From an uncultured bacterium (lineage in GTDB: Bacteria; Calescibacteriota; Calescibacteriia; Calescibacteriales; Calescibacteriaceae): a stretch of DNA of 64,000 nt. Shown piece by piece: positions 10,226-36,129 of the stretch (position 1 is the stretch's first letter; the number at the start of each line of letters is the position of its first letter). The stretch covers positions 62,001 through 126,000 of the forward strand of contig CALHPK010000006.1 of assembly GCA_938036315.1 (NCBI GenBank). Reading direction: 5' to 3'. Under the pieces are notes generated by a model. The model saw nothing but the letters and a program-made list of their open reading frames with translations. It did no database searches and was not told where the DNA came from. Both the position numbers and the translations under genes were made by a program.

Positions 10226-11164
10226 TCAATAAGGTTTGTTGTTGTTGGTGAGTTTATTATTGCTGTTTGCATGATATATTTTTTTAGAGAATTCATTTAG
10301 ATTTTTTGCTTTGATAATTTCTTTTTTGAGTTTTTTGAGTTTTTGGATATCGGAGATTTTTCTGATCTTGCTCATAAGAGATAAGGCTTTTTTGCCAAAT
10401 TTTATCTGAAGATCTAAAGCTATAGCAGTATAAAGTCCTTCCCTCAGACCTCTTTCAATCCCCTCTTTTATGCCTTCTTCTTTTCCTTCTTTTTTACCTT
10501 GTTTGTAACCCAGAAGCCGTGTGACATCTATTTTAAGCTCTACTGGCATACTCTCTAAAGCCTCCTTCTCTACAGATCTAAGCTCAGACAATATATCTAT
10601 TCTGTATATATATTTTAGCAGCTTACTCTCATCGAGGTTCAATTTTTTCAATTTTTCTGTTATTTTCCTGATAACTTCAATTCTGTTTTGAGTTTTGCCA
10701 AGGATGGACAGGATAAAGACATCGGGATCATCAGATTCCAAGAATTTTTCAGCATCAATCTGACTCAGATCTATAATTTCGAATCTGTGGAAGGTTTCGG
10801 TAAACTCTGTTTTTAGAGAGAAGAAATTTTTCATTCTTAATTTGTCTTGCCCGATATAAACCAAGATCTGGATAAGTGGTAAGCTTTGTTTTTGAGGATG
10901 TTTTTTCAGATATTTTCTGTAGAGAGAAATTGCGTAGTTGAGCATTCTTTGAGGCATAAAGTCATCATTTGAGCTTTGAAATTCGATGTGAAGCAGGAAT
11001 TTTCCCTGAGGGGTTTCAATTTCACCGACGAAATCTGCAATGAGCTTTTCTTGGACTTCTGTAGGTAGAGTTTTGATTTTGATGATATCGATGCCAAGGA
11101 GGATTTTGGCGATGGTCTTTGCAGAGGATTCAAAGATTTCTTTTATTTCAGAGTCAAATTTCAT
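10226..11164 (-). CDS. Rpn-family / DUF4351-like PD-(D/E)XK putative nuclease
   Basis: A 312-residue protein. The N-terminal half has the Rpn (recombination-promoting nuclease, transposase_31-like) core: ADFVGEIETPQGKFLLHIEFQSS supplies the acidic E and ExQ-type residues of a PD-(D/E)XK fold, followed by RMLNYAISLYRKY. The C-terminus has the repetitive GKKEGKEEGIKEGIERG helix common in this group, then a coiled, Lys-rich tail. Known relatives act as DNA endonucleases that raise recombination, often in multicopy families. No inverted repeats flank it, so it is not an intact insertion sequence. Confidence 0.75.
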   Translation of the reverse strand: MKFDSEIKEIFESSAKTIAKILLGIDIIKIKTLPTEVQEKLIADFVGEIETPQGKFLLHIEFQSSNDDFMPQRMLNYAISLYRKYLKKHPQKQSLPLIQILVYIGQDKLRMKNFFSLKTEFTETFHRFEIIDLSQIDAEKFLESDDPDVFILSILGKTQNRIEVIRKITEKLKKLNLDESKLLKYIYRIDILSELRSVEKEALESMPVELKIDVTRLLGYKQGKKEGKEEGIKEGIERGLREGLYTAIALDLQIKFGKKALSLMSKIRKISDIQKLKKLKKEIIKAKNLNEFSKKIYHANSNNKLTNNNKPY

Positions 11165-30103: not shown

Positions 30104-31315
30104 ATGAGTGTAGTCTTAGGTAGTGGGAAAAAAAATGCCAAAAAGGTTGTAGGGATTATAAGACCTCACGGAGGAAGTTTGAAGTTAAGGTTTTACCCAA
30201 AAGGAAAGGAGAAGATAAAATTAGAAAAGTATCCGGTTTTAGAAGTAACTCGTAGGGAATGGTGCGATCTTCAGCTTTTGGGAGTTGGTGTTCTCTCTCC
30301 TCTTGAGGGTTTTATGAACAGAAAAGATTATCTTTCCTGCGTAAAGAATTTGCATCTTGATAGCGGTATTTTGTGGAGTATCCCAATAACTTTATCGGTA
30401 AAGGATGATGAATATGAAAAGGTAAAGAGAGCAGATATCGTGTATATCAAGTATCAGGGTAAAATATGGGGAGAAATTCAAGTGGAAGAAATATACAGAG
30501 TTGACAAGGAGAAGGAAGCTTTATTTGTTTATAAAACTCTGTCAGATGAGCATCCTTCTGTTCAATACTTGAGAAAGATAGGTCCAAGGTACATAGGTGG
30601 TAAGGTTTTGCTTTATGAGGTTGACAACTTCGGATTTCCAGAGCTTTTTTTTACTCCGGAGCAAACTCGCAAGATCTTTGAAAGTAGGGGGTGGAAGAAA
30701 GTCGTTGGGTTTCAGACCAGGAATGCTCCGCACAGGGGACATGAGTATATTCAGAAATGTGCTCTTGAGATTTGCGATGGGTTGTTTATCAATCCTTTGG
30801 TGGGAGAAACTAAAAGTGATGATGTCCCTTCTGATATTATTGTGAAATCATACAAAGTTTTGATCTATAATTACTACCAAAAAGAGCATGTATTTTTGGG
30901 GGTTTTGCCATCTGCTATGAGGTATGGGGGACCACGTGAGGCTGTTCATCACGCAATAATGCGGAAAAACTTTGGTTGTACTCATTTCATAATAGGGAGA
31001 GATCATGCTGGATTTAAGAATTTTTACGGTCCTTATGATGCCCAAAAGATATTCGATGAAATAGATCCGAAAGAGATAGAGATAATACCTCTTTTTTTTG
31101 GAAATTCTTTCTGGTGCAAAAAGTGTGGTGGAATGACATCGGAAAAGGCTTGTCCTCATCAATTGGAGGATCATATCTCAATTTCTGGGACTCAAGCCAG
31201 GGCTATGCTATCTGAAGGTAATATCCCTCCCGAAGAATTTATGAGAAAAGAAATTTCTGAGATTCTTATAGAATACTATAGAACTTTAAGACAACATAAG
31301 AATCAAGGAGTTTAG
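30104..31315 (+). CDS. sat: Sulfate adenylyltransferase (ATP sulfurylase)
   Basis: Makes APS from sulfate and ATP. The ATP-binding signature QTRNAPHRGHEY and GRDHAG are present, with a zinc-type CKKCGGMTSEKACPH near the end, as in prokaryotic homodimeric Sat. I prefer ATG 30104 (MSVVLGSGKK) over TTG 30086. No apr or dsr genes are nearby, so assimilatory or dissimilatory use cannot be decided. The last 4 bp overlap the stop of the convergent CcmB-like gene. Confidence 0.93.
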   Translation: MSVVLGSGKKNAKKVVGIIRPHGGSLKLRFYPKGKEKIKLEKYPVLEVTRREWCDLQLLGVGVLSPLEGFMNRKDYLSCVKNLHLDSGILWSIPITLSVKDDEYEKVKRADIVYIKYQGKIWGEIQVEEIYRVDKEKEALFVYKTLSDEHPSVQYLRKIGPRYIGGKVLLYEVDNFGFPELFFTPEQTRKIFESRGWKKVVGFQTRNAPHRGHEYIQKCALEICDGLFINPLVGETKSDDVPSDIIVKSYKVLIYNYYQKEHVFLGVLPSAMRYGGPREAVHHAIMRKNFGCTHFIIGRDHAGFKNFYGPYDAQKIFDEIDPKEIEIIPLFFGNSFWCKKCGGMTSEKACPHQLEDHISISGTQARAMLSEGNIPPEEFMRKEISEILIEYYRTLRQHKNQGV

Positions 31316-31941
31316 TCTTCAATATCAAAAAGCAGTAATGAGATAGAAAAGTTCAGAACATCAAAACTTATTATTAGTTTTATAGCATTGGGATCTCCTT
31401 CAAGAAATTTTTGAGCACCTATAATAACTGGAATATATAATGGTAAAAGAATTACATAAATCGGGACTCCTACATTTCCCCTGATGTATGAAACTGAAAA
31501 TAGGATTGACAAAGATGTAACTCCAATCAGTGAAAGTTGAAAAATTAGAACTGAAGAGTATGATACTTTGAAGTTCAAAAAGAAGGTAAACATAGCTATG
31601 ATAAAAAATCCTATCGCTGTCATAATTATGTAGCAGATTAAAAATTTTGATATAAAGATAAGTTCTTTCTCAACACCTGAATTTAAAATTCCCTCTAATA
31701 TTCCATTTTCAGATTCATGCCTTAGTATTTCTGTTGGGATTATAAGTCCTGAGAAGAGAAAGATAATCCAAAGGATTTGGAATGAATGTTCAGATACTAT
31801 TTCCGTGGGCAGGGAGAAAGATATCAGTACAGTGGATATTAATGAGAATGCGAGGGGGAATAGGAATGAAGTTTTTTCTCTGAATGCTATCTTTATGTCT
31901 TTTGTTATCATTGCTACTAATTTATTCAAGAGTGTAGACAT
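31312..31941 (-). CDS. CcmB-like membrane protein (haem exporter B-type)
   Basis: A 209-residue protein with six hydrophobic segments. The pattern KDIKIAFREKTSF, LWIIFLFSGLIIPTE, ESENGILEGIL and LLPLYIPVIIGA matches the CcmB permease of the CcmAB haem-handling transporter for c-type cytochrome maturation. No ccmA or ccmC is adjacent. It is coupled to the GMC gene, whose stop is one base upstream of its ATG, so it may work with that oxidoreductase. An ABC-2 permease of other specificity is the main alternative. Confidence 0.6.
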   Translation of the reverse strand: MSTLLNKLVAMITKDIKIAFREKTSFLFPLAFSLISTVLISFSLPTEIVSEHSFQILWIIFLFSGLIIPTEILRHESENGILEGILNSGVEKELIFISKFLICYIIMTAIGFFIIAMFTFFLNFKVSYSSVLIFQLSLIGVTSLSILFSVSYIRGNVGVPIYVILLPLYIPVIIGAQKFLEGDPNAIKLIISFDVLNFSISLLLFDIED

Positions 31942-31942
31942 A

Positions 31943-33499
31943 CTAGAGAATGTTTTCGAGGATGAATTTTGCTATCTTCAAGGAAAACGCCATAATAGTC
32001 AATTGAGGATTTACGCTCAATGGGAATGGGAATATGCTACCGTCTGATATGTATAGGTTCTCTACTATATGGTATTTGCCATTTTCGTCAACTGCTGAAA
32101 AATGAGGGGAATTTCCCATTCTGCAAGTGCCGAGTGGATGAAATGCCACAGGTTCAAGATGAGATGGTTTTATTTTCCAATCCAATATTTTTTTTATCTC
32201 ATCTGGTTTTAGTTCATCTATCCCCCAGATGTGCGGAAAGATTCTTCTTGCCCCACTTTCGGCAAATATTTTTGAAGCGTTATATATTGCTATCTTGAAT
32301 CGATCGGCATCTGATTTTGTAAGATTGTAGATCATAATGGGGTCTTTAAGAAAAGGTAAGGAAAGTATTCTGCCGTATCCTGAATCTGAAACCATAACAC
32401 CTGTGGACATTATATTATTGTATCTTTTTAACAGAGCTTTAAACTTTTCACCTATAAATGGTAGAGTCATAGCTCCTATGATTGGTGGAGTTGCTATTCC
32501 TTCTATCATTATCCCATATTTTTTAAATTCATCGACTAAGTATCCTTGAGGAATTCCTTCCCATTGATTGATTTCGAAATCAAATTCGGCGGAGATTCTT
32601 ATTCCAGGGTGAATAGTCAGGTACTTTCCAACCGAGTTTAGTGCGATTCCGCTTTTTTTTAAGATATGTGGCGTATAGATTGAGCCAGCGGATAACACAA
32701 CGACCTTACCAAAGACTCTGAATTTCATTTTTTTTCTACTGCTGTCTGTATGTTCATCCAGTGGAGTTTTAACTACTCTGCCTTCTACTCCAACTATTTT
32801 ATTGTTGTGCAATATCAATTTTTCTACTCTTGAGTTTACTATAAATTTTGCTCCATTCTTTATCGCTTGTGGAATATATGATACTGCCATAGAGAGTTTT
32901 GCATTTTCAGGGCAAATATACTGACACTGGCCACATCCTTTACAGTCCTTCGCATTTCTTTTTAGTGGGCTAGCTGACCAGCCCAATTTTTTCGCACCTT
33001 CAAGAAAGATTCTTCCATGGTTCCCTAAAAGTTCATAAGGCGCTTCCGATACTGATAATGATCTTTCAACCTCTTCATAAAAGGGTTCGATGTCTTCATA
33101 TTTTATTTTTACTCCAAAATCTTCAAAGTGAGAGAAAGTATCAGGTGATGCTCTAAGACACGTGCCAGAATTAATAAGGCTTGAGCCTCCCAATCCTACC
33201 CCGATAGGGATTGGAATAGGCGGGCGACCAGGTATGGTATTGTAGGCTACCGTAAAGCCGGAGTTTCTGTATACTTTCTGGAAAGCTCTGAGAGGTCTCT
33301 CGTTGATATCGTAGGGTAAATCTTCTGCCTTCACATAATCTCCCTCTTCAATGATTATGACATTAACTCCACTTTGTGCTAGACTTTTGGCAAGCGGTGC
33401 TCCTCCAGGACCTGAACCTACTACAACAACATCTGCATTCAGTTCGTATCCTCTCTGCGGAATTAATACTCCATCACGCAACTTAAAATCTGCCACCAT
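31943..33499 (-). CDS. GMC-family FAD oxidoreductase
   Basis: A 518-residue enzyme with an N-terminal FAD site (VVVGSGPGGAPLAKSLAQSG). The middle has CKGCGQCQYICPENAK, a Cys set that resembles a ferredoxin-like motif and is typical of long-chain alcohol/sterol-type GMC enzymes. The C-terminal HPLGTCRMG is the GMC signature with the active-site His. The substrate, probably an alcohol, is unknown. It is the third gene of the TetR-HAD-GMC-CcmB-like operon, with 12 bp or less between genes. Confidence 0.88.
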   Translation of the reverse strand: MVADFKLRDGVLIPQRGYELNADVVVVGSGPGGAPLAKSLAQSGVNVIIIEEGDYVKAEDLPYDINERPLRAFQKVYRNSGFTVAYNTIPGRPPIPIPIGVGLGGSSLINSGTCLRASPDTFSHFEDFGVKIKYEDIEPFYEEVERSLSVSEAPYELLGNHGRIFLEGAKKLGWSASPLKRNAKDCKGCGQCQYICPENAKLSMAVSYIPQAIKNGAKFIVNSRVEKLILHNNKIVGVEGRVVKTPLDEHTDSSRKKMKFRVFGKVVVLSAGSIYTPHILKKSGIALNSVGKYLTIHPGIRISAEFDFEINQWEGIPQGYLVDEFKKYGIMIEGIATPPIIGAMTLPFIGEKFKALLKRYNNIMSTGVMVSDSGYGRILSLPFLKDPIMIYNLTKSDADRFKIAIYNASKIFAESGARRIFPHIWGIDELKPDEIKKILDWKIKPSHLEPVAFHPLGTCRMGNSPHFSAVDENGKYHIVENLYISDGSIFPFPLSVNPQLTIMAFSLKIAKFILENIL

Positions 33500-33511
33500 T
33501 GAAATAATAGC

Positions 33512-35533
33512 TTACTGATACAGTAATTTGTAAAGATAAGCAATCTTTTCCAACCCTGATATAGATGATATGAAAAAGTAAACTTTACCTCTCTCAGAGA
33601 AGAAATTTGGAGATCTTATTTCGGAGTATAAAGCTATAAATTTTGCTGATGATGAAATTGCTGTTTGGTGGTCAATTTCGGAATCACCAACTATGAATGT
33701 TTCCTGTGGAGTGATATTGAGTTTATCGCAGATAAATTCTATTACTTTTTTATTCGGTTTAAGGATATCTTCTTTATGATCTTTTACATCTCCTTCTCCG
33801 ACTATCAGGTCTGTGTATTTGTGGAATCCAAAATTTTCAGTTAGTTTTTTCAAAAACTCCGTTTTTTTATTTGACAGTATTGCTACTTTGTATCCAAGCC
33901 TTTTCAACTTTTTTAGGGTTTCAAGGGCTCCGGGTGCCGGGTAAGTTTTCTTCAGGAATATCTTTTTATATTTCTCTCTGAATAATTTTACTCCTTTTTC
34001 TGCTTCTTCTCCTGTGATGATTTCGAAGCATTTTTTAAGGGGGAGACCTATATATTTCTGGATGTTTTCTGGGAAGGGTTTCCCAAGTTTTTCAAGTGCG
34101 TATTCGAACGCCTCTTTTATTCCTTCATACGACCACGCCAGGGTTCCGTCAAAGTCTATTATAAAGCAAGCGGGGGAGATGCTTAATGTTTCTATTATGT
34201 CATAGAAATTTTCAAATGGTGCAAAGTCTAATCCTTTTTGCTGGCATATTTCCTTGAGTCTTGATTTAGCAAAAACTATGTCCGCTTCCTCAACTATACA
34301 TCTATCAGATATTCCATTTCCTGCGAAAATTGTGAAAAATTCGCCCTTTATATTTTTATCGGAAATTTTGCGCCTTCTGTATACTTCGAGTTTGCAAGTT
34401 GCACAGAGGTTACAGAATTTGCTTTGGTTTGGAAATTTGAATTCTAATTTACCGGATTTTTCGCAGAGTTCTGATGCATGATAATTCAGGTTCAGTCCAA
34501 ATTTTTTTTCTGTTTCTTCAATATAAAATGAGAATCCATCGGACACTATTTCTATATCTGCAAACTTAGATGAGAAATTGATAAATTCTGTGAATCCATC
34601 TTCTATTTCAACAAATTCAGAAGAGAATTTCCTCATATCATCAAGTGAGCCTAATATTTTGTCCTCCACGATCCTATAAAGTTCTTTAGAACCAATATTC
34701 CCTTTTATGACATTTCGCGGTAGGTTTCTCCAAGTTCCAGATGTAAACTTATCAAGAATAGCTATGGATACGTCTTTTTTCGTTATTGTTCCATCAAAGT
34801 CACATAATATTTTTATACTTTTTTCTTCTTTTTTACTGGAGGTGGTTGAGATTGTTTTTTGTTGAGATAACGGTTTTATTCTGCCCAAGAATTTATCCTC
34901 AACGAGTCGGTAAGTTTTCTCTTTTTTCGGGATGTTTATAAAATTTATTACTTTCGGGACTGCATATTTCAGTACAAGAGCAATAGCTTGGCTTTCAATA
35001 TTTTTTGCAAGAAAGATGTATCCTTCGCATATTTTTCTAGTTGCTAATGATAGTGCAATTACCATATTTTTTGTTGATATGCTTTTTAGGGAGGAGATTG
35101 GGAATCTGTAGTTTACATTAAGATCAAAGGCTGAAAATTCTGTTAGGAAGTTTTTAACTTTGATACCTGTGATGAATTCGATCCATAGGGAGAAAAGTAT
35201 TTTGTGGATTTTGCTTTTGGACTTTATGTAAAATATTCCGGATTTTTTCGACTTCAGATTCACTTTTTTGATTTCTGAGAATAAAATTTCTGTAAAATCT
35301 TCATCTGTTAGTATACTACTTTCTACTAATTTTCTGTTTTTGGGGTCAGTTATATTTTTTTTAAGGAGTTCTGCAAGTTCAGGAGAGAATAAGTGGTCAT
35401 TTTTGTCATCTATTGTTTTGATGTTTACTGGTTTTAGTTTAGGATTAGGATTAAGAGGAGATGTTTTCAAGAGTTTTACTACTGTGTCTGAGAATAGAAA
35501 TTCTATATTCGGTACAGAAGTAGTATCAAGCAT
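33512..35533 (-). CDS. Three-part protein: unknown N-terminus + two HAD phosphatase domains
   Basis: A 673-residue protein. Residues 1-235 are of no recognised family and mostly helical. HAD domain 1 (about 240-455) begins with CDFDGTITKKDVS, the nucleophile motif of MtnX/phosphoserine-phosphatase-like enzymes, and carries FCNLCATCK, as MtnX-like enzymes do. HAD domain 2 (about 455-673) begins with IDFDGTLAWS and resembles phosphoglycolate phosphatase, with LSNKK and IVGDSEID. Both domains keep the DxDGT nucleophile, so both could be active. KTYRLVEDKFLGRI at the end of the N-terminal part nearly repeats KELYRIVEDKILGSL inside HAD domain 1. It follows TetR by 5 bp. Confidence 0.75.
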   Translation of the reverse strand: MLDTTSVPNIEFLFSDTVVKLLKTSPLNPNPKLKPVNIKTIDDKNDHLFSPELAELLKKNITDPKNRKLVESSILTDEDFTEILFSEIKKVNLKSKKSGIFYIKSKSKIHKILFSLWIEFITGIKVKNFLTEFSAFDLNVNYRFPISSLKSISTKNMVIALSLATRKICEGYIFLAKNIESQAIALVLKYAVPKVINFINIPKKEKTYRLVEDKFLGRIKPLSQQKTISTTSSKKEEKSIKILCDFDGTITKKDVSIAILDKFTSGTWRNLPRNVIKGNIGSKELYRIVEDKILGSLDDMRKFSSEFVEIEDGFTEFINFSSKFADIEIVSDGFSFYIEETEKKFGLNLNYHASELCEKSGKLEFKFPNQSKFCNLCATCKLEVYRRRKISDKNIKGEFFTIFAGNGISDRCIVEEADIVFAKSRLKEICQQKGLDFAPFENFYDIIETLSISPACFIIDFDGTLAWSYEGIKEAFEYALEKLGKPFPENIQKYIGLPLKKCFEIITGEEAEKGVKLFREKYKKIFLKKTYPAPGALETLKKLKRLGYKVAILSNKKTEFLKKLTENFGFHKYTDLIVGEGDVKDHKEDILKPNKKVIEFICDKLNITPQETFIVGDSEIDHQTAISSSAKFIALYSEIRSPNFFSERGKVYFFISSISGLEKIAYLYKLLYQ

Positions 35534-35538
35534 GCAAT

Positions 35539-36129
35539 TTATTTTTCTGCGAGGAGACCTTTGAGGATTATGTCTAAGGTATCATCTATGTCCTTCTTTT
35601 TTGTATTTTGTGACATAGCTAGTTCTTTAGTTATGGAGAGGATTAAAAAGGCTGCTTGCCTTGTGTCAATAGCTCTGAAAACTTTTTTTTCTATCCCCTC
35701 CTTTATTATACTGTCAAGTAATTTTAGTTCTCGACCTCCTAATTCCTTTGCTTTTAATCTTTCTATTTCACTTTTAAGTTCTCCGACAATCTCTTCTGTC
35801 ATGTTAAACAATCTGATTAATTCTTTTGCCCCTTCAATTTTGACTTCTGCAAATTTTTTTATTTTTTCTACTGGGTTTTCTGTCTCTTTTACTGATTCTT
35901 CAATTTTCGTGATTAGCTTCCCTATTTCATCTTTTATTCCTTCTTCGAATAGATCTTTTTTTGAATCGAAGTAGTAGTATATAGCTGCGGGAGTGAAGCC
36001 AATTTCTCTGGAAATATCATCCATTGTTGTTTTAATGTATCCATATTTTGCAAAAACCTTCTTTGAAAGGTCTAAGATCACTTTCCTTCTTTCTTCTTTC
36101 GGTTTTCTCTTTTTCTTGTTTTCCTGCAT
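35539..36129 (-). CDS. TetR/AcrR-family transcriptional regulator
   Basis: A 196-residue protein starting with a Lys-rich stretch, then a TetR helix-turn-helix (KVFAKYGYIKTTMDDISREI, FTPAAIYYYFDSKKDLF). The rest is a helical ligand domain. It is the first gene of a four-gene minus-strand operon (HAD fusion, GMC oxidoreductase, CcmB-like), so it likely represses that operon in response to a small lipophilic molecule (inference). A GGGGGAA stretch precedes its ATG. Confidence 0.88.
   Translation of the reverse strand: MQENKKKRKPKEERRKVILDLSKKVFAKYGYIKTTMDDISREIGFTPAAIYYYFDSKKDLFEEGIKDEIGKLITKIEESVKETENPVEKIKKFAEVKIEGAKELIRLFNMTEEIVGELKSEIERLKAKELGGRELKLLDSIIKEGIEKKVFRAIDTRQAAFLILSITKELAMSQNTKKKDIDDTLDIILKGLLAEK

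Follow-up and report, generated by a model that had tools for sequence, protein, structure and literature searches.

In this work, we describe a 673-residue protein of a hot-spring bacterium in which a domain with a probable truncated CobT fold stands in front of two phosphatase domains of the HAD superfamily, HAD1 and HAD2, an architecture that can be read directly from the sequence, as can its spread, the modularity of the gene, and which of its motifs are intact. We put the probability at about one half that the protein is a soluble small-molecule phosphatase, with HAD2 as the main catalyst, HAD1 as a modified domain, and the catalytically dead CobT-fold domain as a module for binding or assembly. 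Judged by its homologues, the fusion is real, and it seems to be confined to one small bacterial family, in which it combines a lineage-specific domain with a twin-HAD protein that is found alone elsewhere. No published description of this domain architecture was found in the openly accessible literature, subscription papers being mostly outside the search; the preliminary description had called the arrangement unfamiliar, which holds for the complete protein but not for the HAD1-HAD2 pair, which occurs alone in other lineages.

The fusion gene, its locus, and its relatives

The gene is an open reading frame with an ATG start and 0 internal stops (Table 1), located in the window, that is, the whole stretch of 64,000 nucleotides analysed here, which belongs to a 1.87 Mb genome assembly that is 85% complete. 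A gene for a TetR-family regulator lies 5 bases before it and a gene for a GMC oxidoreductase begins 12 bases after it, so that the fusion gene probably belongs to an operon. Only a few bases separate the genes for TetR, the fusion protein, the GMC oxidoreductase, and a membrane protein on the minus strand of the window (31312-36129).

Table 1. Positions in the window of the fusion gene, its parts, and its neighbours
Feature	Position	Strand	Remarks
Three-domain fusion gene, 673 aa	33512..35533	-	CobT-like domain, HAD-IB, and HAD-IA; open reading frame, domain matches, homologues
TetR-family regulator	35539..36129	-	PF00440
GMC oxidoreductase	31943-33499	-	
Membrane protein	31312-31941	-	Same tight run of genes
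N-terminal domain, residues 10-201	34931..35506	-	Probable truncated CobT/ArsAB-like core; AlphaFold2, Foldseek, hhalign with controls
Variable linker, residues 202-239	34817..34930	-	Alignment of relatives; pLDDT < 50 at 208-239
HAD1, residues 240-451	34181..34816	-	HAD-IB, MtnX/PHOSPHO1-like; CxxCxxCK cluster C374, C377, C380, K381
HAD1 motif IV GNGISD, residues 405-410	34304..34321	-	Asn406 where a metal-ligand Asp is usual
HAD2, residues 454-640	33614..34174	-	HAD-IA, Gph-like
Near-repeat, first copy, residues 204-217	34883..34924	-	KEKTYRLVEDKFLG; in linker
Near-repeat, second copy, residues 282-295	34649..34690	-	SKELYRIVEDKILG; in HAD1

A search for the same domain order, which the preliminary description had suggested, was carried out with the full-length protein as query against 60 related and broader genomes, and the same three-part protein was recovered from three of them (G001, G003, and G004), in which it is 47-50% identical to the query along the entire alignment. 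Its retention in these three related genomes rules out a frameshift or a chance reading frame. The relatives of the window genome include Bacterium HR19, Candidatus Calescibacterium nevadense OTU 1, and Candidatus Calescibacterium sp. SKYB43, which places it in the Calescibacteria lineage; the fusion is present in 4/5 Calescibacteria genomes, and the last of the named relatives (G002), the fifth genome, carries its halves as two separate genes. When the whole protein was used as query in a first scan of the genome contig collection, no matches were obtained.

In G002, a 218-aa gene for the N-terminal domain and a 431-aa twin-HAD gene are located on one contig, ~13 kb apart (region C38 22496-37386, L030 and L031), and the protein is therefore modular. 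The gene for the N-terminal domain directly follows a TetR gene whose product is 49% identical to the TetR of the window; past TetR and the N-terminal domain, the equivalent region of G002 does not show the gene order of the window. The same G002 gene overlaps a convergent gene for a family-2 glycosyltransferase, a relative of which (42% identity) immediately precedes the fusion in G004. In G001 and G003, the fusion gene is closely preceded by genes (L027:10444-10746 and L028:1-372) whose products end in a GFEEGK...ELKFG C-terminus, and the window encodes a protein with a comparable C-terminus at 10226-11164. The best tree weakly joins the window protein with that of G002 (support 66/89), with other groupings not rejected (p-AU 0.17-0.46), and neither this tree nor one of Mfd decides between fusion and fission in G002.

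The N-terminal domain and its likeness to CobT

No convincing match for the first ~235 residues was found in sequence searches of Pfam, PHROGs, NCBIfam, or the PDB; a weak RE_ApaLI match of one member of the domain family (6.6e-4) and matches to dynein light chain (0.29) were treated as chance. With a five-sequence profile, the domain was detected in the five Calescibacteria only, among 386 genomes, in which no convincing homologues beyond this group were found and one extra match, covering 39 positions at 9e-4, was not accepted as real. The preliminary description had left this part of the protein unrecognised, which agrees with the sequence libraries but no longer holds once structures and profiles are compared, which point to a truncated CobT fold.

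A structure prediction of this part, likewise suggested earlier, gave an AlphaFold2 model with a pTM of 0.77, in which most of residues 10-120 and 145-200 are above pLDDT 80; the model and the profile both rest on five sequences (Neff ~2). The top 36 matches returned by Foldseek against the PDB were all CobT or ArsAB, with probabilities of >= 0.97 in 19 of the first 20, at a best E-value of 3.3e-3 and TM-scores of about 0.3-0.5, which are weak. A viral structure library yielded nothing for the same model (best probability 0.09). In profile comparison with a CobT alignment, the domain scored 27.0, whereas none of 150 column-shuffled controls exceeded 19.4 and the reversed profile reached 11.5, and CobT led a panel of 22 families with 29.6, the next family reaching 17.2. 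A permissive alignment is colinear with the CobT core (PF02277), running from residue ~36 to past 201 against CobT from ~110, with its confident part at ~107-200, and the helix-strand-helix segment around DGFIS...P of CobT has a counterpart at NIES...P in the N-terminal domain. Since the probability assigned by hhalign itself is just 6-12% and the alignment of the domain is thin, the relation to CobT is probable rather than proven, and residues 10-201 would represent a truncated core of the CobT fold.

The domain differs from CobT in several respects in addition to the attached HAD domains. PF02277 did not match it, either in Pfam scans or in a genome search with this model; the domain has neither the CobT motifs GDMGIGNTT and GRGTG nor the C-terminal LGEGTGA segment; and it stops before the CobT segment that carries the catalytic Glu, with the N-terminal region of CobT missing as well. 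In Salmonella CobT, E317 acts as the general base, whereas M. jannaschii CobT uses Asp52 instead (PMC9561151). As the segment with the catalytic Glu, GDMGIGNTT, and GRGTG are all absent, the N-terminal domain is unlikely to be an active phosphoribosyltransferase. A CobT-type domain inside a fusion protein is also known from BluB/CobT2 of Propionibacterium freudenreichii, which, unlike the window protein, is a functional enzyme whose partner is BluB and not a pair of phosphatases (PMC4657239). A complete CobT was found in G001-G004 and CobS in all five Calescibacteria genomes; CobT was not found in the window genome, which may reflect a gap in the 85% complete assembly.

The preliminary description had also noted a nearly duplicated 14-residue segment, which is indeed present (8/14 residues identical, 25/42 at the DNA level) but not conserved in relatives. 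Only 2/2000 shuffles were as good, for a segment that was picked post hoc. This choice, together with the position of the first copy in a variable linker not shared with the relatives, lends little support to a real duplication, and the near-repeat probably arose by chance or, at most, through a local event of no functional consequence. An internal duplication was rejected on the absence of the linker copy from the aligned relatives and on the DNA identity.

The two HAD domains and the stand-alone twin-HAD proteins

That the protein contains two HAD domains of different subfamilies, both with a DFDGT nucleophile motif, as had been proposed from the sequence, was borne out by matches of HAD1 to TIGR01488 (HAD-IB; 79.3 bits, above the cut-off of 45, residues about 242-451) and of HAD2 to PF13419 (HAD_2; 2.9e-35, residues about 456-640). 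HAD2 has a complete catalytic set, comprising D460/D462 of DFDGT, S554, K592, D617, and D621, and the corresponding D-x-D, motif-II Ser/Thr, motif-III Lys, and GDxxxD are found in 21/21 aligned twin-HAD proteins. It aligns with Gph-type HAD-IA enzymes (PDB 2nyv) over most of its length and with all four motifs, but falls below the equivalog cut-offs of this family (82.1 against 225 bits for phosphoglycolate phosphatase), so that its substrate is not readable from the match.

In HAD1, motifs I-III are kept (nucleophile D245/D247, S331, and K381), as they are in all 21 aligned twin-HADs. Its motif IV departs from GDxxxD in that Asn406 replaces the first Asp, with the second, D410, retained and invariant across an eight-protein twin-HAD alignment. 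The equivalent position is Asn in all five Calescibacteria, and among the 21 aligned twin-HADs the motif reads GNGxSD in 16 (all Calescibacteria included) and GDGxSD/TD in 5. A pattern count on fetched loci, with the window excluded and with sequences that are related rather than independent events, gave Asn in 16/21 twin-HADs versus 6/63 single-domain relatives of HAD1. Work on two other HAD phosphatases, Sav2152 and PchP, has linked the corresponding aspartates to metal binding or to catalysis; most of the motif mutants, not all, were inactive (PMC11084212, PMC3170909). By analogy with these enzymes, the Asn in motif IV suggests that HAD1 is plausibly impaired or altered as a phosphatase; such a residue need not abolish activity, and HAD1 may therefore be active. 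By fold and sequence, HAD1 is a member of HAD subclass IB, and the doubt concerns its full activity only. It resembles MtnX/DKMTPPase-like and PHOSPHO1-like HAD-IB enzymes (TIGR01489, PF06888) in motifs I-III, in the CxxCxxCK cluster, and in its length of ~210 residues, but differs from them in scoring below the MtnX cut-offs, in its GNGISD motif, and in the second HAD domain behind it.

The HAD1-HAD2 pair is not unique to Calescibacteria, since about 16 other genomes carry it without the N-terminal part. In the genome contig collection, at least 16 loci outside this group, a lower bound obtained with a single search pattern, encode the pair alone, mostly as proteins of 425-460 aa, in Thermodesulfobacteriota and other bacteria (L039-L053, L055), and twin-HADs were also found in 6/381 other genomes searched. 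These proteins share the HAD1-HAD2 order of the fusion and are about 30-34% identical to it along almost their entire length, but have no CobT-like domain and different neighbours. Adjacent genes encode a CDP-alcohol phosphatidyltransferase (L040), an acyltransferase (L053), a metallophosphoesterase (L039), a cytochrome c assembly protein (L044), or a cytidylyltransferase (L043); across the regions L039-L055, the neighbours vary by lineage and no common pathway was found among them.

Proposed function and competing explanations

Which domain does the work, and what the N-terminal domain contributes, we infer from the state of the motifs and the fold comparison; the full-length structure model is poor (pLDDT 49) and unusable for domain contacts. 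The intact, Gph-like HAD2 would hydrolyse the substrate through an aspartyl-phosphate on D460. HAD1, with its nucleophile, Ser, and Lys kept and Asn406 in the metal site, would either retain a weak or altered phosphatase activity or serve in regulation. The CobT-like domain may hold an oligomer together or recognise a ligand that resembles a nucleotide or a base, but would not make alpha-ribotides. In a related scheme, which we regard as improbable, the CobT-fold domain, devoid of phosphoribosyltransferase chemistry, would be a ligand sensor controlling the twin-HAD part and one of the two HAD domains a pseudo-phosphatase, together forming a metabolite-gated phosphatase specific to Calescibacteria.

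The bifunctional phosphatase envisaged in the preliminary description, with HAD1 and HAD2 both active on two substrates or in two steps of one pathway, draws on both nucleophile motifs, the intact Ser (motif II) and Lys (motif III), and the invariant D410; it becomes doubtful in view of Asn406, which occurs in all five Calescibacteria and most other twin-HADs at a position that is important in other HAD phosphatases (PMC11084212, PMC3170909), and we consider it a rather unlikely alternative. A missing further catalytic residue in either domain had been named as counting against such an enzyme, and this applies in part to HAD1, whereas HAD2 is complete. An identity of HAD1 with MtnX of methionine salvage, the remainder being merely attached, is very improbable: an MtnX model is its top NCBIfam match and 2fea, annotated MtnX, its top PDB match, but every MtnX model scores far below its curated cut-off (80 against 303.2 and 91.4 against 292 bits; TIGR03333 / PRK09552), the partner dioxygenase MtnD (PF03079) exceeds its cut-off in 1/8 twin-HAD genomes and in none of the other 7/8, among them the window genome (85% complete), and visual inspection of the neighbours showed no recognisable mtn genes.

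The remaining alternatives concern the N-terminal domain. Its likeness to CobT could be spurious and the domain an unrelated, lineage-specific alpha/beta domain, as the low TM-scores, E-values of 3e-3 and above, lack of a sequence-family match, and shallow alignment would allow; we think this unlikely, given that all leading fold matches come from one family and that profile comparison picks CobT, in colinear order, over shuffles and 21 other families. If the likeness is taken at face value, the protein might act on the nucleotide loop of cobamides (B12-type), with the CobT-like domain binding an alpha-ribotide or base and a HAD domain removing the phosphate in a CobC-like step. CobT makes alpha-ribazole-5'-phosphate and the pathway requires a late dephosphorylation (PMC9561151), the pathway is present (CobS in 5/5 genomes, bona fide CobT in 4/5), and BluB/CobT2 provides a precedent for a CobT fusion (PMC4657239). 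Against this, the active-site motifs of CobT are absent from the N-terminal domain, and a complete CobT is kept besides it in 4/5 genomes; in addition, three genomes with twin-HADs (G018, G024, and G048) gave no CobT match and no recognisable cob genes adjoin the fusion gene, nor are the CobT genes adjacent to it, and for these last reasons we do not favour a cobamide-pathway role, which is conceivable but in our estimate quite improbable.

Should the reading as a soluble phosphatase driven mainly by HAD2 be correct, a phosphoribosyltransferase fold of the B12 pathway would have found a second, non-catalytic use as part of a phosphatase in a lineage of uncultivated hot-spring bacteria, and the twin-HADs would form a family in which the metal site of the first domain is often altered. 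G002, in which the two halves are encoded as separate genes, offers a natural experiment.
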